Shown: positions 349 to 38,057 of the stretch, piece after piece | Layout: each line of letters opens with the position of its first letter | How positions within the stretch are numbered: position 1 is the stretch's first letter | Origin: Scenedesmus sp. ARA3 | Lineage: Eukaryota; Chlorophyta; Chlorophyceae; Sphaeropleales; Scenedesmaceae | Direction: 5' to 3' | DNA: 48,785 bases | Assembly (NCBI GenBank): GCA_004335835.1 | Contig: RWJK01000933.1 | Location: forward strand, 1 to 48,785 | Notes under the pieces: generated by a model | The model's database searches: none | Told to the model about the DNA's origin: nothing | Seen by the model: only the letters and a program-made list of their open reading frames with translations | Position numbers and translations under genes: made by a program

Positions 349-2444
349 GCTGCCGGGCCCTGGCCAGCTTGTGAGGGCTGGCAGCATTGCACTCAGCAGG
401 CCCCGCAGGCAGATCAAGCGCACTGCTGCTGCGCTGTATGCTGCTGCTGCTGAAGCTGACAGCGAAGATGATGCAGACCAACTGCCACAGCTGCGTGGCA
501 GCAGCAGCAAGAACCTAGCCGGCAGCGGCGGCAAGCGCCGCGCTCCTGCTGCGACTGGCACAGGCAGCAAGGCAGCAGGGCTTGTACTCGACAGTGATGC
601 AGAATCTGCACTGGGCAGTGATGCAGGGGCAGATGAGGATTCAGAAGATCCTTCTGACTTTGATTCTGACGATCTGAGTGACGATGATGACGCATCCGGC
701 CGCAGCAACGGCCGCCGCAGGGCAAAGAAGCGCCGCACTGCAGCAAACGCGCGGCAGCGCAACAATAACAAGGCAGCCGCAGCAGGTGCAGCAGGTGGCG
801 CAGCAGGTGGCGCAGCTGCTGGCAGCAGGGGTGGCAAGAAGCTGTCTCCAGATTCATCTCCGGGCTCAGTGGGCCCTGCCGGCAGTGCTGGTGGCGGCGC
901 AAATGGTGGTGGTGCAGGGAGCAAGCCGGTGTTTGAGGACACGCGCTCGCAGTACAGGGGCGTGACGCGGCACAGGCGCAGCGGGCGTTGGGAGGCACAC
1001 ATCTGGGTGAAGGATCTGGGCAGGTGCGGCATGATTGCATTTCTGGCGTGCCATGTATGCATGTGTGTCTTTCCTGAAAGTGACGAACTGCGTTCCTGCA
1101 CATTCATCCATTACAATGTCGCATGCATTTGTCTGCTGGGTGACAGATCTGGGCAGGTACAACTGGGAGTCACTGACTGGCAAGAGTGGTTTCAGTGCAA
1201 CAATTTGTAGAATGATGGCATGTGGCTGGGATTTCCTGCTTGGCATCATGTCATTTCTGCTACAGCAGGCTGTCTGGTGGTAGCATGACCCCTTCTAGCA
1301 GAGAGAACTGGGGATTGTGTTGAATAGACTGAGCGTGTCGTACAAGCTGCTGCTCCGCTAGTAAAGCCTTGCAATCCAGTTGCATGCATGTCTGCTTGTT
1401 TAGTCTGCCGACTGTTCAACGTGGCTGAAGTCTAGCTCTCAAAAGCTCTTTGCGTATCACTCCATGCTGCTGCTGCTGCTGCTGCTGCTGCAGGCAGGTG
1501 TACCTTGGCGGCTACGAGCTGGAGGAGGCAGCAGCAGAGGCATACGACATGGTGAGGGGGGCAGCGCTGCACTGTGGTGCGTGATTGCCAGTCTACTATA
1601 GCACACACTGTTATCTATCAAGTGCTGCACTCTGGGCTGCACCAGCACTTCAACTGTGGCCGGCACTTACAGTCACTGCTTGGCATGGCGCCATTGGTTG
1701 ATCATCTATATCTGCCTGCTGCCGCAACAGGCTGAGCTCAAGTGCAAGGGCCCCGGCTGCGCCACCAACTCCCCTTGCGAGCGGCTACGTCACACGCCCC
1801 ACCTGCACATGACATGAAGTCACCCACATCTCACTGCATTGCTGCCCTGCCTGCCTGCTGGATCGCAGGTTGAGCTCAAGTGCAAGGGCCCCGGCTGCGC
1901 CACCAACTCCCTTGCGAGCGCTCACTATATGACCCGTCTGCACCTGATTCAACACATGTCACTGCATTGCTGCTGCCTGCCTGCTCCACCGCAGGCTGCG
2001 CTCAAGTGCAAGGGCGCTGGGTGTGCCACCAACTTCCCCTGCGAGCGCTACGCTGACCTGGCTGGCAGCTTGAGCACCATGAGCTTGGAAGAGCTCATCA
2101 TGGCGGTGCGGCGCCAGAGCCAGGTAGGCTTGAGTGTAGTGTTTGAGTGGCTTTTCTGGTTGTGTGGCACAGGCACAGGCGAGGCAGTTCTCTTCTGCTT
2201 ATTTTGTGTCACCAGGGTTGGCCTCTTCAACCACCCCTCGCAGCTGCAACAGCGACACCCACTTGCAGAGCAGGCTGTTGACCATCGGCATGGGCAATGC
2301 TGCTGCTGCTGCTGCTGTTGCTGCCAGGGCTTCTCCCGTGGCTCCAGCAACTACCGGGGCGTGACTGCGCACCCCTCAGGGCGCTGGGAGAGCCGCATCG
2401 GCATCCCAGGCTCGCGCCACGTGTACCTGGGTGAGCGAGGGGCT

Positions 2445-2487
<43 letters not shown>

Positions 2488-3862
2488 TTGTGCATGCTCC
2501 CTTGCCAGCACAGGCCAGGCCAGCTACATCCCAGGCTCACGCCACGCGTACCTGGGTGAGCGAGGGGCTGACTGCTGCTGCTGATGTTTAGTGTATCCCT
2601 ATACCAGCTCAGCATCGTGCCAGGGCACTCATATTCCAAGCTCTCGCGCCACGCGTAACACGTGCTACCTGAGTGAGTGACGGGCTGTAGGTGCATGCTG
2701 TTGTCCATGGTATCACCCTGGGTGATTGCGGTGCCCATTTTAACAAGCATCGCCTGAGAACACCTTGACGTGTGCATCGGTTGCCAGGTGTACACACACT
2801 ACATGTGGGCTGCTGAAGGGCAGTTTGATATAAACCAGCTGGCTTAAAGGGAAAACCTTGCTTAATGCACCCTGCAGGCTTGTTCTCTGAGGAGCAGGAG
2901 GCAGCGCGCGCGTATGATGCTGCGCTGGTGCGCCTCAAGGGTATGGGGGCTGCCACCAACTACTCGCTGGCCTGCTACCAGCAGCAGCTGGCGGAGCACT
3001 ACCAGCTCAAGATGGTGGGTCATCTAAACATGCATGTACACGCTGTCATGTGTTGCTTTTGCTGCCTTCCTTCTTGATGGTGTATATGCCAATTTGGCGG
3101 AGCACTGCCAGCTCAAGATGGTGAGCCAAATGTCCATCTAGCCACACATGCGAGTGTGCAGATTTTCATGTGATTTTGACCTTTCAAACGCACAGAACAT
3201 GACAGCTGGCGGAGCACTGACAGTGCAAGATGGAGAGCAGGCCACAGTAGACACGTATAGTTACGTCACCGCACAATGCGTTGGTACAAAGCGTGCTATG
3301 ATGATGGTGTCACACCCAAGTTGGGCAAGCACCAGTTTAAAAGGCTAGCCCTGTGCCGCAGCCGTTTTCCCCCCGAAAACTGCCTCGGCTTGTTCTTAAG
3401 TACCGTGGTTGGGTGTCTGTGCAGCCAACATGTGTCTAGGTGCTCATCTGAAGCTGCAAGCCTTTAAAGGCTGCAGCAGCCTTTAGTTGACGCACCGGCA
3501 GAGGGTGATGTGCTTCCTGCCGCTGTGTCTGCAGTTCTGACTGCTGCTTTTGCCGTGTCCTGCTGCACTTGCAGTCTGCTGAGGAGGGCCTAGTGTCCGC
3601 TGAGCTGTTCAAGCGCCACGCAGGGCCAGACTTTGAGCAGTGGATCAAGCAGGGGCTGCCAGCGCTGGGGCTGGAAGTGTCACCCGCTGCACTTGACATG
3701 GCACGCAGCGACACCACAGGGGCCGCTGCTGCGGCTGCTGTGACAATGGCAGGGGGGGGAGGAGCAGCAGCAGCAAGTGGTGGTGGTGGTGGTGGTGGTG
3801 GAGTAGCTGGTGGTGAGGTGGCGGGCGCTGGTGTGCTGCTGCGCTCCAACTTGATGAGATGA
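1..3862 (+). CDS. Double-AP2 (AP2/ANT-like) transcription factor, 5' partial
   Basis: Sequence-specific DNA-binding regulator acting in the nucleus (family knowledge). Exons: 2-1023, 1494-1551, 1995-2123, 2328-2430, 2878-3014, 3575-3862. All phases agree, giving 578 codons plus a TGA stop. The reading frame is open to the window edge, so the true start lies outside. The N-terminal ~310 residues are Ala/Gln/Gly/Ser-rich with acidic stretches and basic KKRR-type clusters that could be nuclear localisation signals. The first AP2 domain (~316-383) has [15 protein letters not shown] and VYLGGY, and ends in [11 protein letters not shown]. The second (~409-468) has [21 protein letters not shown] and [12 protein letters not shown]. 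Two AP2 repeats joined by a short linker place it in the AP2 rather than the ERF class. The C-terminus is a Gly/Ala-rich tail. Introns 1-5 contain decayed copies of the neighbouring exon ends. Target genes cannot be inferred. Confidence 0.9.
1731..1922 (+). repeat. Two decayed copies of AP2 exon 3 start
   Basis: Positions 1731-1796 and about 1869-1922 repeat the first ~55 nt of the exon at 1995, each preceded by its own CAG acceptor-like end and a pyrimidine-rich tract. Both would encode a [15 protein letters not shown] peptide but soon run into stops or lose frame. Only the third copy at 1995 continues into the conserved domain and keeps phase with exons 2 and 4. Spacing is about 130 nt. Confidence 0.85.
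2527..2682 (+). repeat. Two copies of AP2 exon 4 end with donor site
   Basis: Positions ~2527-2565 and ~2632-2685 repeat the 3' end of exon 4 (CCAGGCTCGCGCCACGTGTA...) together with the following GTGAGCGAGGGGCTG intron start. The second copy carries an insertion and is more diverged. They lie in intron 4 in the same orientation as the exon. Confidence 0.8.
3093..3236 (+). repeat. Two copies of AP2 exon 5 end with donor site
   Basis: Positions ~3096-3123 and ~3205-3235 repeat the last ~22 nt of exon 5 (GGCGGAGCACTACCAGCTCA...) and the GTG donor context. In the second copy the donor GT is changed. Spacing is ~110 nt. Confidence 0.8.
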
Positions 3863-3934
3863 TCGCCAGATGATTTTAGGGAGGCTTTGAGACGCACGCG
3901 GCAGCTGTGTCCTACACAGCAGTGCTGTGCTATG

Positions 3935-3939
3935 TGTAA
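3935..3939 (+). promoter_or_regulatory. TGTAA polyadenylation signal of the AP2 gene
   Basis: TGTAA lies 73 nt after the stop codon. TGTAA is the established polyadenylation signal in chlorophyte green algae. Assignment to this gene is by position only. Confidence 0.5.
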
Positions 3940-4026
3940 TATGACAGGTTTATGTGCATGTGTTTTATGTGCATTGGTTATGCTCGTGTTGTTGCCTTGA
4001 CAGAACTCCTCTGATATGCATGCCTG

Positions 4027-4400
4027 AGTTCGAGCAGTGGATCAAGCAGGGCCTGCCAGCGCTAGGGCTGGAGGTACCTGACTAACAGCCAAGGTTCTTG
4101 TGCTGTTGATCAGTGTGTGGCGCTTGTGCTGCACATTGAAAGTTTTCGAGGGGGAGAAGGGTCTTTTGGTTTGGTTGGTCAGGGCTGACATATGATGCGA
4201 GCTTCCTGTCGACAGGGAGACAGCTGTTTGTTGCTGCGCTGTATGTGATGTATTGCTTTTGCTTGTCTAGACCAGCACTGTCCCACAGCCGATGTACTGT
4301 TGATCAGTGTGTGGCACTTGCGCTGTACAGCATAGATCTCAGACTTCGGATGGTTCTTTTGGTGTGATCTATCAGGGACGATGTGATGTTCTGCTGTCAC
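4027..4400 (+). repeat. Downstream echo of AP2 last exon plus ~190-bp duplication
   Basis: Positions 4027-4076 repeat an internal piece of the last AP2 exon (TTCGAGCAGTGGATCAAGCA...), followed by GTACCTG. This lies beyond the TGTAA signal. Positions ~4098-4210 and ~4285-4400 are a diverged ~190-nt-spaced duplication sharing TGTTGATCAGTGTGTGGC and GGTTCTTTTGGT-like blocks. No open frame or domain is recognisable. Confidence 0.6.
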
Positions 4401-4940
4401 TGCTGATCAACCGAGTGGATCGATGCAGATATGTCTGGCGACATGTACGGCTGTGTACTTGCAGCAACATGACACTTACTGGGGTGACCCCAACCTGTTC
4501 ATGTCCTGCAGTGGTGTGGCAATGTCTTCAAGCTGCGGGGATCCCACATCGATGTGCTCAAGTCCAGGATTGTTACAATGCAAGCGGACCTGGCATAGCT
4601 GACGCAGCTAGTCTACTGGTGCCAGCTGCAGTGTGTGACGAGAACCCATATACGAGACCCATCTTAAACGGCTTCTCACTCCACCGCGCCCTGACCACCC
4701 AAAGATAGTACTAGTGCTTGGCCTGAAACCCAGAAAAGCCGCAACTGTCGCTGATGATCAATACCAAAACAGGTGATCAAGGCAGCATGCAAGCATGCTG
4801 TAGGTGACACATACAAGCAGGCGGCGCGTGCCATAAGACAGCGCAAGTGACCTGCTCACACAGCTTCACACAGCGTCCGCACATCTCGTATGCATGCAGA
4901 TGTGGTAGGGCAGCCAGCAACAAATGGAAGTATGCAAAAG

Positions 4941-5040
4941 CTCCTAGTATGCATGTACGGATGCAGCAGACTGCCTCAGCAAACCTGGAGCTCCTAGTAT
5001 GCATGTACGGATGCAGCAGCCTGCCCCAGCAAACCTGGAG
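4941..5040. repeat. 50-bp tandem duplication
   Basis: Two nearly identical 50-nt units starting at 4941 and 4991 (CTCCTAGTATGCATGTACGG...), differing at about two positions. Confidence 0.9.
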
Positions 5041-5455
5041 ATTTGACAAGCATGCTGTCGCAGACAACAATTGCAAGTGCAGCACACTCGGCGCAAGCAG
5101 CGGCTGCCTGGAAAGCAGTCAACACAGTGCATCTGCTGTAGCGCACAGTACTTGCGGAAGGCAAGATACATGGGCAGGAAAAAGAAAGACGTCCCGCCCT
5201 GCCCCTGAAAGGTGCCCACAGGGCAACAACTGCAGCAGGTGCTGCTGGCTGCATGCAAAACCATCAAAGAAAAGAGGTGCACCATTGCCCTCAACGCTCA
5301 GTGTGTTCTGCTTCACACTTTGGCATGGCGCGCCGTATGAAGGAGAGAATGCCAACAGCAACACGGGGCAGGAGTACCCCATGGCTGAGTGCAATGATAC
5401 CGAGCAGTTGTTGCTCCTGCAGCTGTGCTGCAAGCAGCCGCCACGTATCATCTGT

Positions 5456-5767
5456 TGTGCACGAATGCAAATGCGCCCTGCAAGATGCCACGCCCGGGGT
5501 TTCAATGCTGCAACTGCAGCATAACCACAGACATACAGCATATGTATGAGCAACGTAACCAAGGAACAGATCCAAGTGTGGGCTAGCAGCAAAAGCTCTG
5601 CAAAGTGTGCACGAATGCAAATGCGCCCTGCTCAAAGCCACGCCCGGAGTTCGACGCTGCAACTGCAGCATAACCACAGACACATAGCATACGTATGATG
5701 AGCAACATAACCAAGGAAAAGATCCAAGTGTGGGTTAGCAGCGAAAGCTCTGCAAAGTGTGCACAAC
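5456..5767. repeat. ~150-bp tandem repeat, two copies and a partial third
   Basis: Units begin with TGTGCACGAATGCAAATGCG at 5456 and 5606. A truncated third start (TGTGCACAACGAG) lies at 5758. Unit length is 150-152 nt with a few substitutions and small indels. Confidence 0.88.
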
Positions 5768-8237: not shown

Positions 8238-8283
8238 CAAGCTCAAACTCAGACTCGCAACCTCCGACTCCCCAGACGCGTGC

Positions 8284-11200
8284 TCAGAACTCCAGGCTCG
8301 CGAGCGTTGTGAGCGGCGCCAGCGCCAGCAAGCCCGCGTCAGTCACTCTCGGGCACTGCGCGAGGCTCAGCGTGCTCAGCCTACTCAGCCTGCTGAGCTG
8401 GCACACCCCAACATCGCTCACATTGGGGCAGCGGCTGATTCTGAGGCTTGTCAGCCCAGTGAGGCGAGTCAGGCAGCCCAGCCCCAGGTCTGTTATTTGC
8501 ACGCAGCGGTCCAGGTGCAGCGTGAGCAGGCTGGGGATGCCGCAGACCTCGGAGACGCCCAGGTCTGTCACGCGCACGCAGCCGTTGAGCTTGAGCGTGG
8601 CGAGCTGGTGCATGGCGGCTGCGATGGCTGCCATGGCTGCGTCGCCTACGCGGATGCACAGCGCCAGGTCCAAGCCTGCAGGAGGATGGGCAGGGGGCAG
8701 AGGAGGCAGCAAACAGCATCAGTAATAGGAAGTACATCAACCAATGGTTTTAGGGCACTGGCAGCAGCGCAACTAATGCGATGCCAAGCTACCATGCGGC
8801 ACACCACAGCTGGTGCGCGCTGTCTTGTGCCGCACTGCTGCCACCGCTACTGCTGCTGGTCGACACACAAAACATCAAGCTCCTGTACGTCCAACCAAAC
8901 CAGCTGCATCCCATGTACCACACCAACCCCCCTGCTAACCCTGGTGTGAAGCTAACAAAAAACAAAACGCAGCAGCGCAGCACCCACCAGTCAGCTCAGC
9001 CAGCCCCCGCAGGTAGCCCACACCCACATCAGTGATGAGCTGGCAGTTGCTCAGGTCAAGCTTGGTCAAACTAACAATGCGCCCGATCGCGCGCAGGCCG
9101 CCGTCGTTAAGGCTGGCACAGCCGTTCAGCGACAGCGTGGCCATGCTGCGGCAGCCGCCAAAGGTGGCGAAGCCACTGCCAGTGACGCGCTCGCACAGCG
9201 AGAGGTCCAGCACCTGCATGTAGCATACCAAACAATAAGCATAGGTGAGAAAAGGCAACACAGGGGGAGATCACACGAAGCCACATCACAACATTGGAAC
9301 AAGTGGCAACGCATTTGCACAGCGAGAGGTCCACAACATGCGTTGTATGCAGCAACACGTCAGGCGCAGGCAAGACACAACACAAGGACACAAGAAATGA
9401 GCAAACAAGCGCAACAACGCGCAACCAAATGCCTGCAGTTGGCATAAGCCGCGCAGCGCATGAGGCCCAGCAAGCAGCGGCAGATACATGCATGCCGCGC
9501 CACCGCACGACACCATAAAAAACGCTGCGCATGCACACGCGCAGCTCTGCCTGCGCCACGCACACCATGTACAGCACTCAACAGCCACTTTGCTGCTGTG
9601 CACAGCTCCTTTTGTTGATAATATCCTATCACCTCACCCACCTGCAGCTTGGTCAGCCGCCCCAGCAGTGCCACCCCCGCATCTGTCACATCTCTGCACT
9701 GCTGCGCCAGCAGGTGCGTCAGGCTCTGCAGCTTTGTCACTGCCGCCAGCCCCGTGTCCGTCACTCTGCTGCAGGTGCCGATGTTCAGCGTGTGCAAGTT
9801 GCTGAGCCCTGTGATGTGTTGCAGCGCAGCATCATCTATCTGGCAGCAGCGGCTCAGGTGTAGGGATTGCAGCGTGCTGATCTGCCCGACAGCTTGCAGG
9901 AGCGTTGCATTCGCGTGCTGGCTGCCCTGAAGGTCCAGGTGCTGCAGCTGGCTCATGCGGGAAAGCATGCTGCAGGTCTCAGGGCCAAAGCGGCCAGTGA
10001 AGAAGGCGATGGACAGCACCAGCAGGTGCTGGGAGGCTGCCAGAGGCACCAGGCAGGTGTCGCTGGCGCTTGCGTTTGCCTAGGTGTGGAGTAGTAGAGG
10101 GCAGAGCCAGGACAGGAGCAGTGGACACATAGGGGTGAGTGCTCGGGCGACAGCGACAGCTGACGTGACGCAGCGCGTGGCTTTCAGGAAGTTGGTCAGA
10201 GACGGTCCCGTTTGCACTGCAGCATGCACTCGGCTGGCGCAGCATACTGCGCTGCTCATAGAGCGTGCACGTCACACGCTGCCGCTAAACATGCAAACAC
10301 GCGCTGGCCTGCACTGCATCCTTGCCAATGCCCTCCTGTCCTGCACAAACACACACAAGGCCTGCCCAGCTGCAGCCCAACAGCCCAACAGGCACACCGC
10401 ACAGCAAAAGATGTATGAAAAACCTGCTGTGCAGACGTATTCAAACATAATATAACGCAAGAAATAACACAACATTTCTCACCTGGAAGTTGCCCAGGCC
10501 CAGGATCTGCAGGTTGGGCAGCTTGGCGAGGCTGGCAAGGCACGCGTCATCCATCTCCAGCCGGCTGTTATGTAACAAGCACAGGTCAGTCAGCCCGGTC
10601 AGCGCTGAGAGGTGCTTCAGGCAGCCGCTGCTCACACGCGCGCAGCCGCGCAGGTTCAGCGCCTGTGTGCACGGAGAGGCAAGCGGAAGAAGAAGGAGCA
10701 GCGGAAGTGGCAAAACGAGTTAAGTTGAAGGAGGGTGGATTTTGAGGCATGCAGCGCACATACACCAGGTACATCTGCAGGAGCAAATAAACCTCAACAT
10801 GCGAAGCGCAACTGAGCTTCTAACACAGCAGAGCAGGTAGACAACAACAGCTGACAACACAAGGATGTTGGTGACACTGCAGCTTGCACAGGTGTTGCAA
10901 AAGCAACAGCTCAGTAGCAGCAGCAGCAGCGCAGCAGCAGCAGCAGCAGCAGCAGAAGATGGAAGCCGGAAAGCAGCGCCCCGCACCTGCAGCTTGCTCA
11001 GCTGGCTGAGCTGCGCCACGCCTGCATCGCTGATGTCCAGCGACATCAGCCTCAGCTGCGTCAGCTCCCTGTGGCTCGCCGCAATGCGCCGCATGCTGTC
11101 ATCTGTCACCAGCTTGTTGCTCAGCTGCATGCTGCCCAGGTTCAGGCTGCGCAGCTTGGTCAAACCTGACAGTCGCTCCAGCGCTGAGTCTGTCACGCAG

Positions 11201-14029
11201 ACCTTGCTGTAACCCATGTTGAGCAAGCTGAGCCACTCCAGGTTTGTGAAAGCTGACAGGCACACCACTCCCTGCTCTGTGACGAGCTGGCAGCCGCTGA
11301 TGTTGAGGTTAGCCAGCTTTGTGAGCGGCGTGAGGGCCTTGATGCCGATGTTTGTGACCTTGACGCACCAGGGCATGTCCAGGCTGGTCAGGTTTGTGAG
11401 CTGCGCAACCAGCATCACGCCTAGATCGGTCACGGCAACACAACCGGAAATGTTTAGCGAGCGCAGCCCACTGAGGTACACCAGCGACATGAGCCCTACA
11501 GGCGCACACACACCAAGGGAACACAAAACAAAACAAACTGAGAGAAACACACGCCTGGGGTGCATGAGAAGCAGCAAGGCAGAAGCGGCTTGAGCAATAC
11601 ACTCATGCAACTCTGGGGTGTGTATGCCATGTGGAGCAGCAACCACATACGACATCACACCCCAGAGCTGCATGAGTGGCAGCGATAGGCAGCCTGCGAC
11701 AACATGCTATCCAACCGACCAGCACAGCGAAGGTGGTGTGGAGCAGAGTGCAAGCAGCAGCACAGAAGGCGACGATATTGCCATAGGCCACCAACCACAC
11801 CCTGCAAAGCAACAAGCAGCCCTGACTCTGCAATTGCACTAATTGCTGCCCTTTGCTCACCTCCGTCGCCCACATGCACGCACTGGCTCAGGTTCAAGCT
11901 GCTCAGGCTGGTGAGCACCACCAGCTCAGCGATGCAGGCATCTGTGATGGTGCTGGCAATCAGCCTGTGGTGGCAGCCCAGGGTGAGGTCCTGCAGCCCT
12001 GGCAGCGCCCGCAGGTGGCGCAGCTTTGCTGGCGTGATGTCCTGCAAGGCAAAATTGCAAGCACAGATTGTTGATGATGTGCAGCCCAGGGTGAGGTCCT
12101 GCAGGCCCGGCAGCGCCCGCAGGTGGCGCAGCTTAGCGGGCGTGATGTCCTGCAAGCGCAGCAACGCAAGCACAGATTGTTGATGATGTGCAGGAGCAGG
12201 TGAGGTCCTGCAGGCCCGGCAGCGCCCGCAGGTGGCACAGCTTGGCCGGCGTGATGTCCTGCAAGCACAGCAATGCAAGCACAGATTGTTGATGATGTGC
12301 AAGAGATGGTGAGGTCCCCGCAGGCAGCGCAGCTTGGCTGGCGTGATGTCCTGCAAGAGGATCAAGCAGCGCACACACATTTACTTACGACAAACATTTG
12401 AATCTCCTGACAAGCGGCCATGCAGTTTGAAGTAACAATATACTGGCTGCTGAGGCAAGCGGCGCAGGTTGCGCATCGGCAAAAGGTTTGCAGCCCAGGA
12501 ACAGCATTGCATGTGCAAGGCAGGCAGTGCTTTCGGCAAGCAATCCTGAGATGAGCAACACTGCGCAGCAGTGCCGCCCACCTTGGTGCAGCCAGACAGG
12601 TCGAGGCTCTTGAGGCTGGGGAAGCACCAGGACACGTTCTGCACGGGGAACTGTCGCGGCCGCAGCCGCGTGATTGTCCGCTTGCCGGCATCAGCCCAGT
12701 GCGTGCACACCGCGCGCATGGCCCTGAAGATACGGATGAGGAGATAACGCAGTGCAGCAAGCTAGGTCAGTGCAGTGCAGAGACAGTGGCATAGCATCGC
12801 GCCAGGCCAGGCAGAGGGAATGCAAGACAGGGAGCGCGCACTGGAACGCTGTCGTGTGTGCGCCGCACCTGCCCAAACGATGCAGCTGCATGCTGCGCAA
12901 TGCAGCACACAAAATGGCTGTGCTGCATACGGACAACTGGAGCTGCTCGGCTGCACGGTGCACCTGCCCATCGCCAGCTTGCTGGCTGCTGCTGGCACCA
13001 GCAGCAGCACAACCCACCCCCAAACAGCTGCAAGCTCACAACACCAAAGCAACAGCTTTGCTGCTTCATCATGCGGCCAAAACCCATCTGCTTCTTCTGC
13101 ATCAGCGCACTGCTGCTTGCGTGACTCACCCCTGCGCTGCAGGTGGCAGCCTGTTGTACACGTCCACAAACACTGCATCCGGCAGCATGCGCCACACTTC
13201 TTCCTCATCATCATCACCATCACAAGCTGCTGAGCCGGCTTCTGCTGCTGGGCCTGCTTGCAGAAGCTCTGGCTCCAGCTGCAAGATGATGCTGCCTTTG
13301 CTGCCGCTGCTGCCGTGCTGCCCGTACTCGTTGATGCGGGCTTGCAGCAGCTGCAGTGCATGCGCATGCTGCTTGGGCCATGCCTGGTCCCGCGCAGCAC
13401 ATGTGGCTGCAGATATGGCTGCACCAGCAGCTGCACGAGTTGCTGCACCTAGCTCTGGGTGCTGTGTATCATTGGCTTGCTCAAGCTGCTCCTGCCGCTG
13501 CTGCTCCTGCAGCTCAGGCTGCTGCAGCTGGGGCTGCTGCCTGCAAACGCACAGCATGCTGGTTTGTTAGTACACACGAGGTTCAAACGCAAATGCAACC
13601 AAGCATATGATCGAGCCGTGCATGCGATCAGGCCTGCTGCACAGTGCACAGCAGTACCCACCTGAGCTGATTCTTGATGAATTCGAAGACGATGACGCCT
13701 CCAAGCACCATCAGCACCGCCTCGAAGGCTCCTAGACTGTATAATTGGCCAGCCTGCAGCAGATACCGACACCGTGAGTGAGCTAGAGCTGCTCAGGCAA
13801 GAGCTGCCTTGCGTCCAAGGCACTGCGCACAAGCCCTGCTCCTCCAGACTCTCACCTGGCTCGCCGAAAGGCTCAAACCATTTTCCGTGCTGACATGGAA
13901 CAGCACCGTGAGATAGAAGAGCGCGACTGCGAAGCCACTTGGTCGTCCGAGAAGCCTGCCCAAGCAGTAGCCGGACGCAACTGCTCCCAAGAGGAACAAC
14001 AATACGGCCGTATCTGCAAGTGGATCCAT
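8284..14029 (-). CDS. F-box-like, cysteine-type LRR protein with hydrophobic N-terminus
   Basis: Ten exons on the minus strand: 14029-13856, 13753-13662, 13540-13130, 12723-12582, 12041-11861, 11495-10987, 10662-10483, 10079-9642, 9213-8988, 8675-8284. Phases agree and the sum is 2745 nt (914 aa). Residues ~6-24, ~33-47 and ~64-80 are hydrophobic and look like membrane segments. A Gln/Ala-rich linker follows, then an F-box-like stretch at ~201-240 (WRMLPDAVFVDVYNRLPPAA, then VCTHWADA). From ~255 to the end run LRRs of the cysteine-containing type (L..L.L..C..VTD.GL). In FBXL proteins, F-box plus LRR form an SCF ubiquitin-ligase substrate receptor. A membrane-tethered version is inference. The start is the first ATG in this exon, but an acceptor-like CAG just upstream leaves room for more N-terminal exons. 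Alternative reading: a membrane LRR protein whose F-box resemblance is fortuitous. Confidence 0.85.
9270..9336 (-). repeat. Echo of LRR exon 9 start
   Basis: Read on the minus strand, ~9336-9270 repeats the start of the exon at 9213, with GTGGACCTCTCGCTGTGCAA matching GTGCTGGACCTCTCGCTGTG. It lies in the preceding intron. The acceptor-like end is degraded (ATG instead of CAG) and the frame decays after ~20 codons. Confidence 0.75.
10914..10955. repeat. CAG/CTG triplet tract in F-box/LRR intron 6
   Basis: Interrupted (CAG)n on the plus strand, which is (CTG)n on the sense strand of the gene, located shortly after the donor of the exon ending at 10987. Confidence 0.85.
11601..11677. repeat. 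Intronic inverted repeat (hairpin)
   Basis: Arms 11601-11634 and 11643-11677 are inverted copies with an 8-nt loop. The outer 22 positions match at 21, the innermost 6 match exactly, and the middle carries a few mismatches and one bulge. It lies in the intron between exons 11495-10987 and 12041-11861 and would fold in either strand's RNA. No target-site duplication is evident. Confidence 0.8.
12085..12357 (-). repeat. Three extra tandem copies of LRR exon 5 start
   Basis: The 5' part of exon 12041-11861 with its CCTTGCAG acceptor recurs upstream in the intron. The shared GGCGTGATGTCCTGCAA block (plus strand) sits at 12031 (the real exon), 12139, 12249 and 12340. Copies 2 and 3 cover roughly 60 nt of exon, encoding DITPAKL and LRALPGLQDLT. 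The fourth is shortened. Each is separated by a similar intron piece containing GATTGTTGATGATGTGCA. Confidence 0.88.
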
Positions 14030-16325: not shown

Positions 16326-19300
16326 ATGGCAAACCGGCATTACTATGCTACAAGCGATCAAGAAGAAGAATTGGCGCTGAAGCTGGCTTTGGAAGCGTCT
16401 CTTGCTGATGCAGGTAGCTGGCTGGGTACTGCAGCAGCTGCTGCTGCTGTTCACACTGCTACAACCGCCAGCTACCATGCATGCATGCAGCCTGTTTTTG
16501 AAGACTGCAGACTCTTGCAGGTTCTGGCCAGCTTGTGGTTGGCTGCTTTGTGGCTGGAGCAACAGATTTTCACAGCCTGTCAATTTTATTGGCCTTGTTG
16601 TTCCATCTGCAGCAGCACAGCAGCACAGTATCCATGTACAGCGCACACAGGGTGCCCCCAGTGCCTGCATGCATTACTTATGAAGGCGCACTGTGGTGAC
16701 ACCTTATTTGCATGTTGTTTAAGTTCTCTGCATTAAGGGCAGCCCTTTTCAACATTTGGAGCACGCACAGCCCAGCACAGGCACTGTTCTTGCTCCCAAC
16801 ACAAACTCGATTGCTACCTGCGCGTGCAGGAAACACAGCAGCAGCACGCGGCACCAGCGGCAGCTCACAGCAGCAACCACCTGCACTCAGCAACAACAGC
16901 CATCCAGCAGGGCCAGCACCGTACAGCAGCAGCGGCAATGGAGCAGTGCAGCAGCCCCCTTATGGGTACCCCAGGCTGCCTGAGCAGCAGCAACAGCAGC
17001 AGCAGCACTTGCCAGGTCTCCCGCAGCAGCCACAGCAGCAGCAACCGCAGCAGCATCAGCAGCAAGCACCAAGCAGACCGCAGCAGCAGCAAACCACACA
17101 ACAGCCGCAGCAAGGCAGCAGCAGCAACAGTGGTACTGCCAAGCAGCCGCTATGGCAGAAGCCACTGAAGCTGCTAGATTCTGCTATGCAGAAGATGGCA
17201 GCAGAGACAGGCAGCCAGTGCGGTGGCTGCGGCAAGTGGCTGGGGCTGGCACCTGGCTACACTGTACGGGCGCTGGGGCAGCAGTGGCACCCTGAGTGCT
17301 TCAGGTGCGGCTGCGCTGCTGCAGTGTAGCAGTGCAATGCAGCAGCACTTAATACCACAATGCAGGCTGCTGGCTTGACTGATACGTCTGCTCTGTGGAT
17401 ATACACCTGTCACAGCACTGCAACTTGAATGTGTCTCTCACTCATGCTCAGTTTGTCACTGAACAGTTCCATGCTGTCGCATGTTGCGCTGCAGGTGTGC
17501 CGGCTGCCAGCAGCCGCTGACTCTCAATGGCGGCGCCAACACCTTTGCAGTGGGCCACGACCAGCAGCCGTACCATGAGGCGTGCCACAAGCAGCTGTTC
17601 CACCCGGTGTGCAGCGTGTGCAAGCAGTACATACCAGAGGGGCCCTCAGGGCAGACAGGTGGGGTAGGGTTTATTGTTCTGTGGTCAGGCTGGAAGCCTG
17701 CTAGCAAGTGCTGGCAGCTTTGCTTGCAGCAGTAGGAGCAGCAGGCTGTGGGAGTCTGCAGCACGGGTGGCAGCAGCCATCTGACGTCTGCACGCTATGT
17801 AGCTCACTGCATTGAGATTTGATTTCTGCACGTCTAGCATCGCATTGACATCGCCTGCAGCGGTCCGTGTTGAACTAGCAACGTCGTTGTCTTCACTAGT
17901 GTTGGACACAACCATACTGCAACCTCACATCCCAGACCATGTGTTGCTGCTGCTGCAGAGTGGCGCGAGCACCCCTTCTGGCGGCTGAAGCAGTGCCCCA
18001 GCCACTACGCGGATGGCAGCGTCTCCTGCTGCAGCTGCGGGCGGCTGCAGCCGCTTGCCGATGAGTGGGCGTCGCTGCAGGTGGGCCTGCTGCTCACGGC
18101 TGCTGCCTTGAGGGTTTGAGGCATACGCATCTTTGGAGATTTGTACGGGCGTATTGCATGCACACGCCGTGCACAGGCTGATGATGTGTGCGCGAGTGGG
18201 CCTCGCTGCAGGTGGGCCTGTGCTGCGTTGTGAGCCTGCAGCTGCTGCCTTTCAAGTGCTTTCATGCACAGGCAGATCGCATGCACATCTCCTGCATGTG
18301 CATGCAGTTGGTCTAGCCCTTCTGGAAGGTAAGGCACAGAAACCAGGAGGGCATTATTGAATAGCGTTGCCGCTCGTCATTTGGTGCTGAAGGGTGTGCA
18401 GTGTGTTGTACGGCGCTCACTCTCCTTTTCTGGTCTCAGACCTGTGTTCAACCTGTTGTGGCTCATACCATCCAAGATGGTGCCAGGACCCACATGTAAC
18501 TATCCTCTCTCAACATTTGCGCTGCCATCATGTTTGCAACACCGGTTGCGGTCAATGCTGCTATTGCTGCGGCATACAGTCACAGCTTTGTCCCCTGGGG
18601 TGCCTATTCTGCCTTGCAGGACGGCCGCCACCTGTGCCTGGAGTGCCTGGACACGCTAGTGGTGGACACCAAGGATGCCCAGCCCCTGTACGATGAGGTG
18701 AGCAGACCTTGCCACTATCCTAACCCTTAATCCCAACTTTGATCGCTGCTGGTGATGCACTACATCTCTTTTGTGCCATTGCGCCACCCCAGCACAACCC
18801 TCTGCTCGGCTGACGTCTAGGGAGTATTTTGCATCATTGCATGCCGAAGGCATAAGGGTTGCTTTTTGCTTCGTTACATTATGCAGCCAACACTCCTGCC
18901 TGCTGCAGATCTTGGGCTTCTTTGCGCACATGGGCATGCCGCACCCCTACAAGGCGCCGCTGCTGCTGGTGGAGGGCCCGGTGCTGGACGAGTACGCGCA
19001 CAAGGAGGGGCGGCGCCAGGACGCAGCGCACGCGCCCATGTTCAGCGTGCGGGGACTCTGTGTGGCCCACGTGTACACGTGAGTGCTGTGTTACGGCTCC
19101 TTTGGCCCCTTTGGTTGGGTCGCGTTCTCCGCTTTTGTTGCTCTGCAGCAGCAAAGTTTTGGATGACGTGTGGTGGGGACACATTGGTCCTGCAAGCAGC
19201 AGGCTGTTCAGTGTGCGGGGGTGGCTGCTGGAGACACACTGTTCTTCCAAGCAGCAGGCTGTTCAGTGTGCGGGGGTGGCTGCTGGAGACACACTGTTCT

Positions 19301-25435: not shown

Positions 25436-25466
<31 letters not shown>

Positions 25467-28400: not shown

Positions 28401-28510
28401 CTGGTGCAGACTCACCAAGCAGCTGCAGCAACCAGCAAATCGGGCCACACACTGGCGGCCTGGACAGCTTGAGCAGCAGCATACAGGGTTTGCAGGGCAT
28501 GCAAACAGCA

Positions 28511-28541
<31 letters not shown>

Positions 28542-29414
28542 GCCGCAGGAGCTTGAGCCCTGGTGCAGCCAGCATGCCTCTGCCTGGCAGGCTGCCTGGC
28601 GGCATGACAGCAGCAGCCGGGCAGCTGCTGGCCAGCAATGCAGCCAGCTACTACAACGGCACTGGGCCGCTGACTGGCGGCGCCAAGCAGGGCTGGAGCA
28701 CTGGCAAGTATGGCCAGGGCATGGAGGCTGGCAAGTGCCTGGCAGAGGTGAGGCTGCTGCTGCGCCTGAGTGCTTGCGGTTGAGGGGCAGCGCCGCTGCA
28801 AGTTTTGACTTCCGCATCATGAGGTTGATCTGTGGGGGTTGCAGCTGAACACAGACAGTGCGCACTGCGCACCAGCCGCTATCGCTGCTTCAATGCACCA
28901 GAGATGAGCCCAGTGCCTCTATGGCACTACTGCTACACCATACTGCCTGACACCCCCATTCACACTGTGTTGCTGCTGTGCTGCTTGTACCCTACTACAA
29001 ACATACTGTGGTGGTGTTGTTGGGGCTCGGGTTTGGGGTTGGCGAGCCCCGTTTGCAAATGTAACAATTATTTCTGATGCAGCAAGGCGCAAGTATAAAC
29101 AGACACATGCTGCGCTCCGGCGCGTGCCCCGGCAACAAGCGCCTCGCCGAGGTGCATGCGAACCACAGCATTACACAGTCGCTTACCCTGCACTGCTGCT
29201 GTGCTCCCTGTACCTGACCACAAACACATAGGTGCTGCGCTCAGGCGCGTGCCCTGGCAACAAGAGCCTTGCCGAGCTGCAGGCGGACTACAGGGCGGCA
29301 CGGGCGCTGGTGCTGGACCAGCTGCGGCGGCAGAAGGAGGACGCGGAGGCGCAGCGCAAGCGCATCCTGATGCAGATCGGGCGCGCCATAAACAGCAGCA
29401 ATTGGAGGGCCTGA
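22007..29414 (+). CDS. Kinesin-like protein, N-terminal motor
   Basis: Microtubule motor ATPase. Fifteen exons: 22007-22057, 22239-22325, 22651-22758, 22966-23001, 23277-23756, 24053-24285, 24523-24646, 24810-24909, 25095-25228, 25477-25620, 25816-25926, 26226-27413, 27570-27699, 27918-28747, 29232-29414. Phases agree, 1312 aa. The motor opens with IQVVVRVRPVLPHE, followed by FAFGQTGSGKTYT (P-loop ~110-117), NSLSSRSH (switch I ~298-305), VDLAGSE (switch II ~340-346) and HVPYRDSRLTQLL. An insert of roughly 80 Ser/Ala/Pro-rich residues follows the P-loop region. After the motor come a short helical segment (DQMVLEMRDMIKAL) and long Ala/Gln/Ser-rich tracts. Next is a conserved-looking block near 915-970 (ERNSWFGSDTEMTQLAYQ, then VHDGLVEQG and YYDAIEQQ). 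The C-terminus is helical and charged. The start at 22007 (or the ATG at 22016) is the only in-phase ATG exon found. I cannot assign a kinesin family. Confidence 0.92.
23134..23160. repeat. (CAG)n tract in kinesin intron 4
   Basis: Eight CAG triplets on the sense strand. This is opposite to the usual pattern here, where introns carry CTG on the sense strand. Confidence 0.9.
29100..29156 (+). repeat. Echo of the last kinesin exon start
   Basis: Positions ~29108-29152 repeat CTGCGCTCAGGCGCGTGCCC and GGCAACAAGAGCCTTGCCGAG of the exon at 29232. Its flank (TGCTGCTGTG, ACCACAAACA) also resembles that of the real exon. The copy is followed by GTGCAT, which looks like a donor, where the real exon reads CTGCAG. 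Confidence 0.82.
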
Positions 29415-32586: not shown

Positions 32587-32619
<33 letters not shown>

Positions 32620-35600
32620 ATGCCGTCACTTGCTGCAGCTTTCATCCATCAGGACGCAGCTGCCCTACCAGTACTATTCTCTGCCGTACTGCCGGCCGGA
32701 GAAGATTGTGCCGTTTGCAGAGAACCTGGGTGCGTGGCAGTGTGTCTGTCACTTCGTGCAGCAGCGCTGTACCCTTGCACATGCATCCCCATGTCATTTC
32801 ATCGCCTAAGCCAGGATCCCTGCTGGCATGTGCATGCATGCATGCACGCATGCAGCCGCAAAAGTGCGCACCTTGCTCCACACGTTCATGCCGTGCTCGC
32901 AGCTGCTGTGTCAACACTGCCGTGCTCATGTGCCAGCCGTCGTGCCGCTTGACCGCAGGTGCATGAATGTCCCCTGCTGTTGTTGTCACCACGCTGCCTG
33001 CGCTTCTGCTGCATCTGTTCTGCAGGCGAGGTGCTGCGCGGCGACAGGATAGAGAACTCGCTGTACCAGATACACATGCGCGTCGATGAGCAGTGCAAGG
33101 TGCTGTGCAGGATTGAGTCTTTGAGCGAGGCGCAGGCTGATGCGTTCATTGCAAAGGTGGATGATGACTATAAGGTCAACATGTGAGTGGGTTTTGTGCT
33201 GGTGGGTATGTTGGGGCGTCTGCAGCGCGTGTTAGGTGGGCTGCTGTACAGCTGTAGCAGTCGCTGGCAAAGATGTGGCGCAGACGACCGCAAGGCTGAT
33301 ATGTGGGTTGGTGTTGGGGCGGCTGTTGGCTGGCACGTAAGAAGCACCTGTTCAGCACGTTGGGTTGGTGCGCGGCCGCCACAATCTGGCACGGATGCGA
33401 CGAGGCAGTTACAGCCATGTAAGATGCGTTGCCTTTGCAACAGCTGCTCTTGACACGAGGGCTAACAACCGGCAAGGTCAAAAAACATGGCATGTGGAGA
33501 CTGGGCATGATAATGAGCAGCAAAGCGCGCACTGGGCGGTTCATGCAGGCTTAGCATGTCTGTACGCAGTGCGCCGGAGGCTGTGGCTGTCATGCAGTTG
33601 TGCAGGCAGGCACACCTGCCAGCACTTGCAGGAATGCCCACAGCCGTGCAGCACGCTGCACTTTCAATAGCGCCTGCCCCTGCCCAGGACATGCAGGACA
33701 GCAGCTCTCCTGTCGGTGCAGTGTCGGTGCAGCTCGTATCATCTATGTCTTAATGTGGCTTGTAGGTGGCTGATGTGTTTGAATGTTTATCAACATCTTG
33801 CAGGATCCTGGACAACCTGCCTGTGGCCATGGTCAAGATCCTCAAGGACGAGTCGGGCCGCCAGCTCAAGGCCTACGAGCGCGGCTTCATGACTTTGTGG
33901 CTTGGTTTATGCCTGCCTTTACCGCGTCTTTTGGTGATCATGCAGGATGCTGCGCAACCTGCCCAAGGCCACGTAAAGTTCATCACTCGGTTTCAATTTG
34001 GTTGATTTGTGTGGATCCCTTTTGTTATCGCAGGATCCTGGACAATCTGCCCGTGGCCATGGTCAAGATCCTCAAGGACGAGTCGGGCCGCCAGCTCAAG
34101 GCCTACGAGCGCGGCTTCTACGTGGGCTTCAAGGCCACCATCGAGGGCCAGAAGGACATCAAGTTCTTCCTGCACAACCACCTGCGCTTCAACATCCTGT
34201 ACAACAGGGACGCGGCGACAGACCTGAGCCGCATCGTTGGGTTCGAGGTGGAGGCCTTCAGCGTGAATCACCAGGTGGGGGCCTATTTAAATGGAGCCTA
34301 TTGACGTCAACATGCCGCATGTTTGTGTGAGCATTTGCTGTGGCAGCAATTTTAAGCAGCCTGGCAGTCCTTAGAACTGGAGAGACAGTTGCCGGCTTCA
34401 CTTGTAGCATGCAGTTGGAAGAGCCATGGCACCCCAAGCCACCTGCGCTGATTACCTGCAACGCAACTAACAGGTTGCTGCTGCTGCTGCTGCTGCTGCC
34501 TGCAGTACGAGAAGCCGTGGGACCCCAAGGCCCCCGTGCTCAAAACCTGCAACCCCAACCGCATGGTTGCCGTGTCACATACGCAGCCGCCACAGCCGGT
34601 TGAGACGGGTGCTGAGGTCATCTTCACTTATGATGTGAAGTTCACAGTGAGTTCCGTATAGTGTTTTGATTTCTGTACAGCTGAGCCTGTGTGTTATGCC
34701 AAGCTACGCGTGCAGCTCTGCGTTTTTTGCTGGTGGTCAAGTAGTAAGGCGAGATATGCATCAGCGGCACTGCACATGCATACACTTCGTTCAGCAGCTG
34801 CTGGCACCAGTTCACCACTCTTGCCTTGCCTTGTTGCTGACTGGAACTCCGCCGCATGTGGCTGCTGTCCCGTCCCTGCAGCAAAGCGAGATCCGCTGGG
34901 CGTCCCGTTGGGACACGTACCTGCAGATGACGGACGACCAGATTCACTGGTTCAGCATTGTGAACAGCGTGATGATCGTGCTGTTCCTCAGCGGCATGGT
35001 GGCCATGATCATGGTGCGCACGCTGTACAGGTGCGCAGGAACGAGGGGTTTTGTTGGCGTCTGGGTTTGTTCGACATCTGAGTTTGTTGTGTGGCATCTG
35101 GTGGGCATGGTGGCCATGATTATGGTGCGCACGTTGTACAGGTGAGCAGATACCAGTGGGTTTGGGCGTCTGCATTGTTCCTGCTTGACAAAGTGCAGAT
35201 CGTTGTCCTGGATCCTGTTAGGCATGGTGGCCATGATCATGGTGCGCACGCTGTACAGGTGAGCAGATACCAGTGGGTTTGGGCGCCTGCATTGTATCTG
35301 CTTGACATAGTGCAGATTGTTGTCCTGGATCCTGTCAGGCATGGTGGCCATGATCATGGTGCGCACGCTGTACAGGTGAGCCGCGGTTGTTGGCGGAAAC
35401 TCTGGTCGTGCGACTTCGCGAGCAAGGAAATGCAAGGTTCACATTTGCTTCTGTGTATGCTTGAGACAGTGCATGTGGCTGTTGAGTATGAGGATGAGGT
35501 CATTGAACAGCTGAAAAGCAAGCCAGGCATCGAAAGGAGATTCGTTTGGTGGGTATGTCGGCCAGTGGGGGTCGGCGCTCCTTTGGCACATCCTGCTTTG

Positions 35601-37443
35601 CAGCACACTAGCAAGCCGTCACCACATCACCCGCGTCTTTGGCTTGGCTTGACCTGCAACACGCAGTCTTGATCAGCAACGCTGCTTGCATGTGTGACAA
35701 TTTGCTGCACTGCTGCCGCAGGGATATTGCCAAGTACAATGCGCTGGAGGCTCAGGAGGAGGCTGCCGAAGAGACCGGCTGGAAGCTGGTGCACGGCGAC
35801 GTGTTCCGGCCCCCTGAAAACGCCAGCCTGCTGTCCACGTATGTGGGCGTGGGCGTGCAGATCTTCGGCATGCTGCTGGTGACCACCTTCTTCGCGCTGC
35901 TGGGCTTCCTGTCACCTTCCAACCGCGGCGGGCTGATGACGGCGATGGTGCTCATGTTTGTGTGCATGGGCGTGGTGGCGGGCTACAGGTGGGCTGCGAC
36001 TGAAGCGGGCTGGTGGGCTTAGTGGGCTGTGGCTGTGGGTGTGTGATCAAGTTCGTGTTGCTGAAGGGGTGTGGCGGGCTCAGTGGGCGGTGGCTGTGCG
36101 TGCGTGCTCATGTTTGTGTGCATGGGCGTGGTGGCGGGCTACAGGTGGGCTGCGGGGCTGTTGTTGCTTTGGGTGATAGCAAGCATGCCTGCTAGCAACG
36201 CAGCTGGTTTGGTGGGTTGAGCTGCTTTCCTGTGGGCGGAGCGTTTACGACACACCGCTCAGCACGTTTGTCTGTGGCTGCGCCCGCTCAGCTCTGCGCT
36301 CCATGCTGCAGCGTTGCGAGGCTGTGTAAGACCTCCCATGTATCTTTTTGCGCTGACCTGCCACCTGCCTGGTATAAGACCTCACGCTCCCAGCTGCTGC
36401 ACTCACTCATCACATGCTGTCGGCTGCTCTGCTGTGCCACTGCTTTGCTGTGCAGCGCTGCGCGGCTGTACAAGACCTTCCGCGGCGACCAGTGGAAGAA
36501 GATGACGATGCGCACCGCGCTGCTGTTCCCCGGCACCGTCTTCGGCGTCTTTTTTGTGCTGGACCTGGTCATCTGGGGCCAGAAGTCCTCGGGCGCTGTG
36601 CCTTTTGGCACGCTTGTGGCGCTGTGCTTCCTGTGGTTTGGCGTGTCTGTGCCCCTTGTCTTTGTCGGCTCATACTATGGCTTCAAGCAGCCGGCGGCTG
36701 AAGACCCCGTGAGGACGAACAAGATCCCCAGGCAGATCCCAGAGCAGCCGTGGTACATGCACCCCGTGTTTTCGTGCCTGGTGGGCGGCGTGCTGCCGTT
36801 TGGCGCGGTGTTCATTGAGCTGTTCTTCATCCTGACCAGTGTGTGGCTGCACCAGTTCTACTACCTGTTTGGCTTCCTGGCGCTGGTGTTTGTCATCCTG
36901 TGCCTCACCTGCGCGGAGATTACCATCGTGCTGTGCTACTTCCAGCTGTGCAGGTGGGTGCGGGTGTGGGAGTGGGTGCAGAGCAAGCAGGTGCAGGTGT
37001 AGGTGTGGCTGCTGCGGCCGTGGCGAGAGGTTCTTTGCAGAGACGGTAGAAACCATTGCAAGCAGCAGCAGCACTAGCATGGATGCTGTGCCTCGTCAGC
37101 GGTGTTGTGGCTGCTGTACAGGATTCAGTAAGCAGTAGTTGCAGCTGCAGACGGCCTTTGCGGGTGAAGCTTGCTCAGCTGCTGCACCTTCTAACGAGTG
37201 CTGCGGGTGCTCTGCTCAGCCTGCCTGCCATGGACGAGCTATGCCTGCAGCTGTCTCTGCAAGCTACTCAAGAGTTGCAGCTTGCAAGCAGACCAGCAAT
37301 GTGTGTGACTCGCTCCCTATTACCCATCAGGCATCTGCATAAATGCCGTACGCTAACACAGCACCCCGGCAGTTCCTTCAGGTGCACTTGCAGCTTGCTT
37401 TCACCTGATGTTCGTTTATTTCGATTACATCCAGTCTTACGCT

Positions 37444-37496
<53 letters not shown>

Positions 37497-38057
37497 CTAT
37501 CCTGCAGTGAGGACTACAACTGGTGGTGGCGCTCCTACTTCACCAGCGGCTCCTCTGCGCTGTACCTGTTCGCCTACAGCGCCTTCTACTTCTACAGCAA
37601 GCTGGACATCACCAAGGTGCGCGGGTGGCACATGTGTCAACCTAGTAACAGTAACCGGATGAGGTTGCATGCAAGCAAGCGGGCGACCACCCAAATGTGT
37701 GCTGCTGTATATGACCTACGTTGCCACCACCTTCTTCTGTCTGCTGTAACATCTGCTGTTACACCTGCGCTGCTTGCTTGTACGCGGTTCGTCGCAATGC
37801 TGCTGTACACCTACATGGCCACCATCTCTTGAGTAACATGATGATGATGGCCACCATCTCGTACGGCTTCTTCTGCCTGCTGTAACATCTGCTGTCACAT
37901 CTGCGATTCCCGTGCCCCGCAGTTCATCCCCATGCTGCTGTACTTCACCTACATGGCCACCATCTCGTACGGCTTCTTCTGCCTCACCGGCACCATCGGC
38001 TTCTACGCCTGCTACTGGTTCACACGCAAGATCTACGGAGCCATCAAGATCGACTAA
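32198..38057 (+). CDS. TM9SF/EMP70 (nonaspanin) transmembrane nine protein
   Basis: Endomembrane (Golgi/endosome) protein with a large lumenal domain and nine membrane spans. Ten exons: 32198-32332, 32639-32729, 33026-33182, 34034-34274, 34506-34646, 34882-35030, 35722-35988, 36456-36953, 37508-37616, 37923-38057. Phases agree, 640 aa, a usual length for the family. A signal peptide ([17 protein letters not shown]) precedes FYLPGVAP. Family landmarks are [58 protein letters not shown] and [13 protein letters not shown]. There are also [20 protein letters not shown] and [10 protein letters not shown]. The tail KIYGAIKID carries the KxD-type COPI-binding Golgi retention signal known for TM9SF proteins. 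Introns 3, 4, 6, 7 and 9 contain copies of adjoining exon ends. Confidence 0.96.
33804..33990 (+). repeat. Near-perfect decoy copy of TM9SF exon 4 start, plus a decayed copy
   Basis: Positions 33804-33892 match the first 89 nt of exon 4 (34034 onward) with about two silent differences and divergence only at the very end, and carry their own CTTGCAG acceptor. The reading frame then runs into the intron and stops at 34005. A third, strongly decayed copy follows a CATGCAG at about 33940-33985 (GATGCTGCGCAACCTGCCCA). Confidence 0.92.
34408..34470 (+). repeat. Echo of TM9SF exon 5 start
   Basis: After GCATGCAG, positions ~34412-34465 resemble exon 5 (TACGAGAAGCCGTGGGACCC). The copy reads GAAGAGCCATGGCACCCCAA, then CTGATTACCTGCAACGC, then a TAA. 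Confidence 0.72.
35105..35380 (+). repeat. Three tandem copies of TM9SF exon 6 end
   Basis: The final 37 nt of exon 6 (from GCATGGTGGCCATGATCATG to TACAG, 34994-35030) recur at 35105-35141, 35222-35258 and 35339-35375. Spacing is 111, 117 and 117 nt. Each copy is followed by GTGAGC, and the last two are preceded by CTGTTAG or CTGTCAG, so they have both an acceptor and a donor. The intervening intron pieces are also duplicated. Confidence 0.93.
36096..36160 (+). repeat. Echo of TM9SF exon 7 end
   Basis: Repeats GTGCTCATGTTTGTGTGCAT through GGCTACAG with the GTGGGCTGCG donor context, essentially identical to the end of exon 7 and intron start (35948-35997). Confidence 0.92.
36303..36390 (+). 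repeat. Echoes of TM9SF exon 8 start
   Basis: CTGCAGCGTTGCGAGGCTGT and GTAAGACCTCC at ~36305-36337 resemble the start of exon 8 (CAGCGCTGCGCGGCTGTACA, then AGACCTTCC). A shorter fragment GGTATAAGACCTCACGCTCC lies at ~36370-36389. Confidence 0.72.
37447..37495. repeat. (CTG)n tract next to TM9SF exon 9 acceptor
   Basis: About sixteen GCT/CTG triplets end ten bases before the CTGCAG acceptor at 37502-37507, taking the place of the polypyrimidine tract. Confidence 0.95.
37697..37890 (+). repeat. Three echoes of TM9SF exon 10 start
   Basis: Partial copies of ATGCTGCTGTACTTCACCTA and TCGTACGGCTTCTTCTGCCT occur at ~37701-37748, ~37797-37835 and ~37850-37884. The flank CTGCTGTAACATCTGCTGT is shared between the first and third. 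Confidence 0.85.

Follow-up and report, generated by a model that had tools for sequence, protein, structure and literature searches.

Introner elements, which are dispersed and similar to one another, remodel introns en masse in certain algae. In the potato RdRp gene, the available part of the report describes one tandem duplication that crossed a junction and produced a new intron via a cryptic donor (PMC4974935). The same text refers to intron gain by duplication of an AGGT-containing exon (Rogers; Hellsten et al. 2011, cited in PMC4974935), and the accessible portion of a Drosophila study describes novel introns that arose by sliding or tandem duplication, with exonic duplications tied to gain (PMC2891723). 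For Scenedesmus acutus, the splice variants of one gene include intron retention and exon skipping, and the excerpt available to us makes no mention of duplication (PMC12899622). In the open-access literature, as far as its accessible text goes, we found no report from Scenedesmaceae of arrays in which exon edges recur inside the neighboring intron (here called echoes); subscription papers lie outside this coverage.

The window analyzed here is an entire contig (C649; 48,785 nt) of the 87.27-Mb, 1567-contig assembly of Scenedesmus sp. ARA3. Exon sets were curated for five window genes (AP2, LRR, DA1, kinesin, and TM9SF) and for the CCT-alpha (L032) and CCT-epsilon (L033) genes on the basis of GT-AG ends, open frames, an ab initio model without retraining, and hand reading; a retrained ab initio gene finder was set aside, its model having drifted to CAG-rich sequence. 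All exons beyond the curated genes are ab initio predictions. By eye, the TM9SF gene comprises ten exons with an uninterrupted frame of 640 aa; its top database match, Tetradesmus obliquus (T. obliquus) A0A383W0F6, is identical at 640 of 640 residues and has 20 extra residues, which places the alga in T. obliquus or very near to it. The CCT-alpha product and a T. obliquus protein share 502 of 503 residues, and residues 150 to 522 of DA1 agree with a database protein at 99%. The AP2 and LRR domains reach the Pfam cut-offs. Of the “F-box/LRR gene” of the first-pass annotation, the LRR assignment stands, while the stretch scanned with Pfam revealed no F-box. The kinesin model is partial (it ends at 27700, where there is no GT), AP2 exon 1 is open at the window edge, and DA1 exon 2 starts at 16830, the model having used 16829, one base early. 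CCT-epsilon exon 6 starts at 5076 and has its donor after 5166 (L033); most statistics used 4986-5144.

The outer 60 nt of every exon was compared with the adjoining intron at a cut-off score of at least 16. Across the seven curated genes, a copy in the edge's own intron is present for 47 of the 116 exon edges (46 with the earlier CCT-epsilon exon 6 boundaries, 47 with the revised ones). In introns of other genes, drawn 20 times per edge, only 4 of 2320 comparisons matched, equivalent to 0.2 per 116, and the reverse-complement control gave 1 of 116 edges. The first-pass annotation had proposed setting introns and their flanking exons against shuffled introns; each edge was set against three dinucleotide shuffles, and none of the 116 reached a score of 16. 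Matches in the wrong-side intron amount to 6 of 102, all six in the two CCT genes, and may reflect short exons across which an echo of the other edge reaches. Between 34 (threshold 16) and 36 (threshold 13) of 58 introns carry an echo, with one to six copies per intron. Local direct repeats in masked sequence include 298 pairs with a score of at least 22, versus 0 in a cross-contig null. Within the five window genes alone, 18 of 76 edges and 16 of 38 introns carry echoes; the share in CCT-alpha and CCT-epsilon (29 of 40 edges) should not be read as genome-wide, because both genes were picked for echoes seen in a profile search. Exon-edge echoes are thus confirmed as real, well above chance, and present beyond the window as well.

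The window holds 25 edge-anchored copies at 18 exon edges (copies/edges: AP2, 6/4; LRR, 4/2; DA1, 5/5; kinesin, 1/1; TM9SF, 9/6). This bears out the earlier count of about twenty cases, the single kinesin case, the involvement of both 5' and 3' exon edges, and a range of identity from near-identical to barely visible, which starts at 100%. In AP2 (plus strand), exon 1 has a short 3'-edge echo with the donor at 1136..1158 (matching 1003-1025; 91%, offset 133), exon 3 (1995-2123) has two 5'-edge echoes with the acceptor at 1712..1922 (exon part 88%; at -126 and -264), exon 4 (2328-2430) has a 3'-edge echo at 2527..2555 (93%, offset 125; intron side 0.94 over 31 nt), and exon 5 (2878-3014) has two 3'-edge echoes at 3095..3238 (exon part 96% and 87%). 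In the LRR gene (minus strand), a weak 5'-edge echo of exon 8988-9213 lies at 9309..9341 (82% over 33 nt, offset 124), and three 5'-edge echoes of exon 11861-12041 with a period of about 108 occupy 12057..12365 (exon part 91 to 94%, intron part 0.89 to 0.93).

The remaining echoes of the window are on the plus strand. In DA1, exon 17959-18080 has a 3'-edge echo with the donor at 18194..18220 (96%, offset 131), exon 18909-19078 a 3'-edge echo at 19425..19569 (70% over 145 nt, offset 386), exon 19679-19901 a long 3'-edge echo at 20041..20216 (74% over 196 columns, exon part 87%, offset 243), and exon 20588-20704 both a 5'-edge echo at 20440..20501 (90%, offset 131) and a 3'-edge echo at 20840..20875 (92%, offset 172). 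Just upstream of the echo at 19425..19569, the DA1 intron sequence at 19174-19441 consists of a 55-nt unit in 4.9 copies (97%); by eye, part of this unit is similar to the end of the exon before it. The last kinesin exon (29232-29414) has a 5'-edge echo at 29097..29183 (78%, offset 125). In TM9SF, 5'-edge echoes occur for exon 4 (34034-34274) at 33767..33888 (exon part 83/85), with an older one at 33930-33985 taken from the repeat-pair list, for exon 5 at 34422..34462 (78%, offset 91), for exon 8 at 36307..36337 (84%, offset 144), and, interleaved, for exon 10 (37923-38057) at 37700..37904 (68 to 81%, offsets 106 to 233). Exon 6 (34882-35030) has three 3'-edge echoes at 35104..35381 (spacing 111, 117, and 117; exon part 95, 100, and 100%). 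The 3'-edge echo of exon 7 (35722-35988) at 36104..36154 is identical at 51 of 51 nt, 41 from the exon and 10 from the intron, and has sharp ends.

Similar pairs in the seven genes comprise 81 between an exon edge and an intron, 26 between echoes, 9 between an exon interior and an intron, 10 between exons (7 of them in the LRR gene), and 5 within introns only. The copies consist of an exon edge with its splice site in direct orientation, as in a tandem duplication crossing the junction. In 80 of the 81 exon-edge pairs, read by hand from the list, 3' edges echo downstream and 5' edges upstream; the lone exception is a weak DA1 pair. Neighboring copies are spaced at a median of 127 nt (quartiles, 111.5 to 146; 10th to 90th percentile, 106 to 183; n = 83), a wider range than the 90 to 130 nt first given, with a median exon part of 54 nt and a median inter-copy stretch of 76 nt. 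Spacing is a multiple of three in 22 of 83 cases, which indicates no preference, as in noncoding DNA. It is tighter within arrays than between them for the 55 spacings of at most 200 nt (1 of 10000 permutations equally tight), and the same test on all 57 array spacings gave 664 of 10000; the two spacings above 200 nt may each hide a lost copy. Orientation, polarity, and this constancy within arrays support the local tandem duplication that had been suggested. The accompanying statement that the copies are not a transposon also holds: a search of about 319 kb with the 81 inter-copy segments for a transposon or introner family gave only four matches outside a segment's own contig, each of 19 to 21 nt.

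Occurrence elsewhere was examined in an independent sample of 21 further stretches totaling 239 kb, namely one interior 50-kb block and the starts of 20 contigs, in which arrays were defined by a smallest offset of at most 300 nt. Array density is uneven, from 0 to 10 per 10 kb, with a variance 2.35 times the mean (30 pieces). Among the 78 arrays of window and sample, offsets of 100 to 149 occur in 46, of 50 to 99 in 7, and below 50 in none. Ordinary minisatellite slippage blind to gene structure, with exon edges special only through longer visibility, predicts placement independent of genes. In the sample, 34 of 60 arrays lie at ab initio exon edges, compared with 14.4 (s.d. 2.9) when exons are shifted, a number that 0 of 500 shifts reach; this excess includes the visibility bias, junction copies being overrepresented among the visible ones because exon-derived parts stay recognizable longer. 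The other 26 arrays lie off predicted edges and have similar periods, which favors slippage and, together with that bias, makes the earlier proposal that duplication is centered on junctions no more than a possibility. However, 81 exon-edge versus 5 intron-only pairs looks too lopsided for visibility alone, and we regard slippage as a rather unlikely explanation.

By-eye inspection of other gene families gave partial repeat matches on the expected side in 4 of 11 CCT contigs (14 matches), five expected-side partial repeats among 44 tRNA synthetase matches, and, for kinesins, one clear and three possible echo-like matches among the matches listed, of 151. Expression level as a cause was rejected: kinesin matches are few, yet only 4 of the 11 CCT contigs show any. 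In the last AP2 exon, an interior piece (3625-3678) has an 89% copy at 4022-4075, beyond the stop codon, and copying is therefore not limited to introns. Between the AP2 and LRR genes, tandem duplications are present at 5456-5764 (period about 152) and 4939-5040 (period about 50).

Introns with an echo have a median length of 606 nt (n = 34) versus 268 nt for those without (n = 24; p 7.5e-9), and in the window genes the values are 477 and 272 nt (p 2e-5). Copy number correlates with intron length (rho 0.84), in part unavoidably, because arrays need room. When the array span is subtracted, echo-bearing introns have a median of 276 nt, close to the echo-free value. Arrays thus account for the excess length, in line with the earlier suggestion that echoes may bear on how introns lengthen.

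Introns of the curated genes also show a strand skew, with G enriched downstream of donors and C upstream of acceptors. At echo-bearing donors the skew is 0.27, versus 0.09 at the others (p 0.018); in the window genes only, this difference is not significant. Telomere-like motifs were considered as a mark of break repair; they are clustered in CCT-alpha and rare elsewhere. Of 30 (TTTAGGG)2 matches with at most 2 mismatches in 319 kb, 21 lie in the 10-kb CCT-alpha region (L032), the shuffled total being 2, and 17 of 19 exact heptamers in curated introns are either G-strand copies within the 5' half or C-strand copies within the 3' half.

The two parts of an echo differ in how well they are preserved. 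Across the 83 edge-anchored echoes, exon-part differences at codon positions 1, 2, and 3 are 5.6, 4.7, and 16.9%, and codon changes in all echoes number 181 synonymous, 103 nonsynonymous, and 3 stop. Positional identity is about 0.9 across the exon part and splice core and drops within a few bases beyond. Intron sides are alike at only 0.64, and between echoes the exon part is at 0.88 and the flanks at 0.65 and 0.67. For 46 unit pairs whose intron parts have comparable lengths, 15 of them from one array, identity is 0.92 for the exon part and 0.75 to 0.79 for the intron part (0.68 for unrelated parts); the intron parts exceed the unrelated 95th percentile in 13 of the 46. The youngest copies reach 3 to 17 nt into the intron, and being nearest to the exon does not make an echo the youngest (9 higher and 8 lower among 20 arrays). 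Plain duplication with neutral decay fits badly with the uneven decay, the 3-to-17-nt ends, and the order of the echoes. Of the proposed duplication followed by decay, the duplication is supported; simple decay is an incomplete account, since the exon and intron parts of one copy decay at very different rates. The unevenness could reflect conversion from the exon limited to the part still similar, selection, or edge-only copying, in which an exon edge and its splice site would be copied into the intron without the remaining intron. The last option agrees with the sharp ends of young copies and with intron parts that are often unrelated, and appears improbable in view of the constant array-like spacing, the strict polarity, and some arrays with alike intron parts. 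Such parts are plain in the LRR gene, AP2 exon 4, copies 2 and 3 of TM9SF exon 6, and the 107-nt array of CCT-epsilon. In CCT-alpha, exon 5 (L032 3899-4029) encodes INCT, and its own echo (4092-4169) has the codon for the INCA of another T. obliquus protein.

Decoy splice sites are common, as first noted: 35 of 40 donor echoes retain GT, and 34 of 43 acceptor echoes retain AG. Donor scores are 3.83 for echoes, 4.79 for functional sites, and 0.34 for random GT, and acceptor scores are 4.53, 5.49, and 0.68 for random AG. The functional site exceeds its own echo in 22 donors versus 8 and in 21 acceptors versus 15. If echo sites were used in some transcripts, selection might hold the edge and the splice consensus while the intron drifts. 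Their near-functional scores, at an acceptor upstream tract only 0.50 identical to the functional one, would suit such use, as would an annotated CCT1 isoform that includes an echo. However, mutation at the exon-part rate would leave scores of 4.27 (donor) and 4.35 (acceptor), about those of the echoes. Selection on echo splice sites seemed strong when simulations placed all differences at random in the echo, but scores of much the same level follow from mutation at the exon-part rate, and indels depress position-by-position identity; such selection is no more than a possibility.

Coding constraint was assessed with singletons in multicopy arrays, chosen because the functional exon contributes synonymous change. 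These echo-private changes comprise 68 nonsynonymous, 3 stop, and 62 synonymous, and the nonsynonymous-to-stop ratio is that expected without selection, consistent with an absence of coding constraint. The synonymous share (62 of 133 versus 27% expected) is in excess, which change in the functional exon can explain and to which weak constraint may contribute. Retention of GT and AG and the singleton changes fit unconstrained copies. Complementary splice sites, which echoes acting as complete exons would need, are not enriched compared with matched intron windows, and a cassette-exon idea was dropped when an apparent depletion of donors downstream of acceptor echoes, relative to random intron windows, vanished with distance-matched windows (p 0.51). 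The DA1 database protein has no echo-derived sequence that we could see. Functional echoes are doubtful.

Two T. obliquus protein models appear to carry echo-derived peptides. The 20-aa insert of A0A383W0F6 corresponds to a TM9SF exon 6 echo read as an extra exon. For T. obliquus OEZ86_010546 (CCT1), two products are annotated, one of 547 aa and one of 556 aa with a second VLESGSVVP, and the 27 nt behind this repeat equal the end of the third exon 10 echo in the present assembly (L032 8824-8850), the only one of the four CCT-alpha exon 10 echoes preceded by AG, via a C-to-A change. That an isoform from another T. obliquus annotation, whose protein differs at 1 of 503 residues, matches an echo here argues against duplication by assembly error, as does a difference of at least 5% in the exon part of 60 of 83 copies; a few identical copies speak for such an error, which we nevertheless consider highly improbable.

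The repeat unit, its polarity, the array-like spacing, the intron lengthening, and the decoy splice sites are direct observations. We propose, with a probability of about 0.58, that they result from recurrent tandem duplication of units of about 100 to 180 nt across exon/intron borders, with splicing at the outermost site. Stretches of this size would be duplicated in tandem recurrently in this genome. When a unit crosses a border, the copy joined to the remaining exon would keep its function and the other would become an intron-side echo, containing an exon edge, the splice site, and 50 to 100 nt of intron. The spliceosome would normally ignore echoes, and with splicing held at the outermost site, the protein would therefore be unchanged and the intron longer by one unit. 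Repeated rounds would build arrays, and the exon part of an echo may be renewed from the functional exon, through gene conversion or unequal exchange. Duplication with conversion is favored because of the array-like spacing and the clear resemblance between intron parts in several arrays. A bolder version, which we hold only tentatively, is that exon edges and echoes evolve in concert: the exon would overwrite its decoys by short-tract gene conversion, splicing would keep to the outermost site and pass over near-perfect inner copies, introns would lengthen stepwise by about 127 nt, and now and then a mutation would turn an echo into an in-frame exon, the CCT1 isoform being a suggested example.

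Intron growth that is visible as stepwise exon-edge repeats becomes countable and roughly datable per gene. Echoes also mislead gene annotation, with one public protein model that appears to contain an echo and one annotated isoform, in another gene, that has one, and dozens of natural decoys beside true sites offer a ready test of how the spliceosome chooses its sites.

Compared with the systems described so far, the proposed recurrent border-crossing duplication in this alga draws on familiar elements. Introners are dispersed and alike, whereas each copy here matches only its own exon. A complete tandem exon duplication has both splice sites in the copy, which is not usual here, the two recruited cases (TM9SF and CCT1) apart. 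Intron gain of the AGGT type has in common with the alga a tandem duplication near splice signals; in the available description (PMC4974935), however, an exonic duplicate creates the intron, while in the alga the intron pre-exists and the unit crosses its border. The pattern left by that type, in which the intron start resembles the next exon's start and the intron end the previous exon's end, was absent by eye at TM9SF exons 6 and 7, the only place inspected for it. The Drosophila introns, in the accessible text (PMC2891723), likewise link partial exon duplication to intron change, but in few cases and with no echo arrays. The potato RdRp case, as far as the available report goes (PMC4974935), is a single event giving a new intron, in contrast to many events, at both edges, in multicopy arrays that mainly make introns longer. 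In the literature as available to us, the ingredients are known, and it is the scale, the regularity, and the uneven decay that are new.
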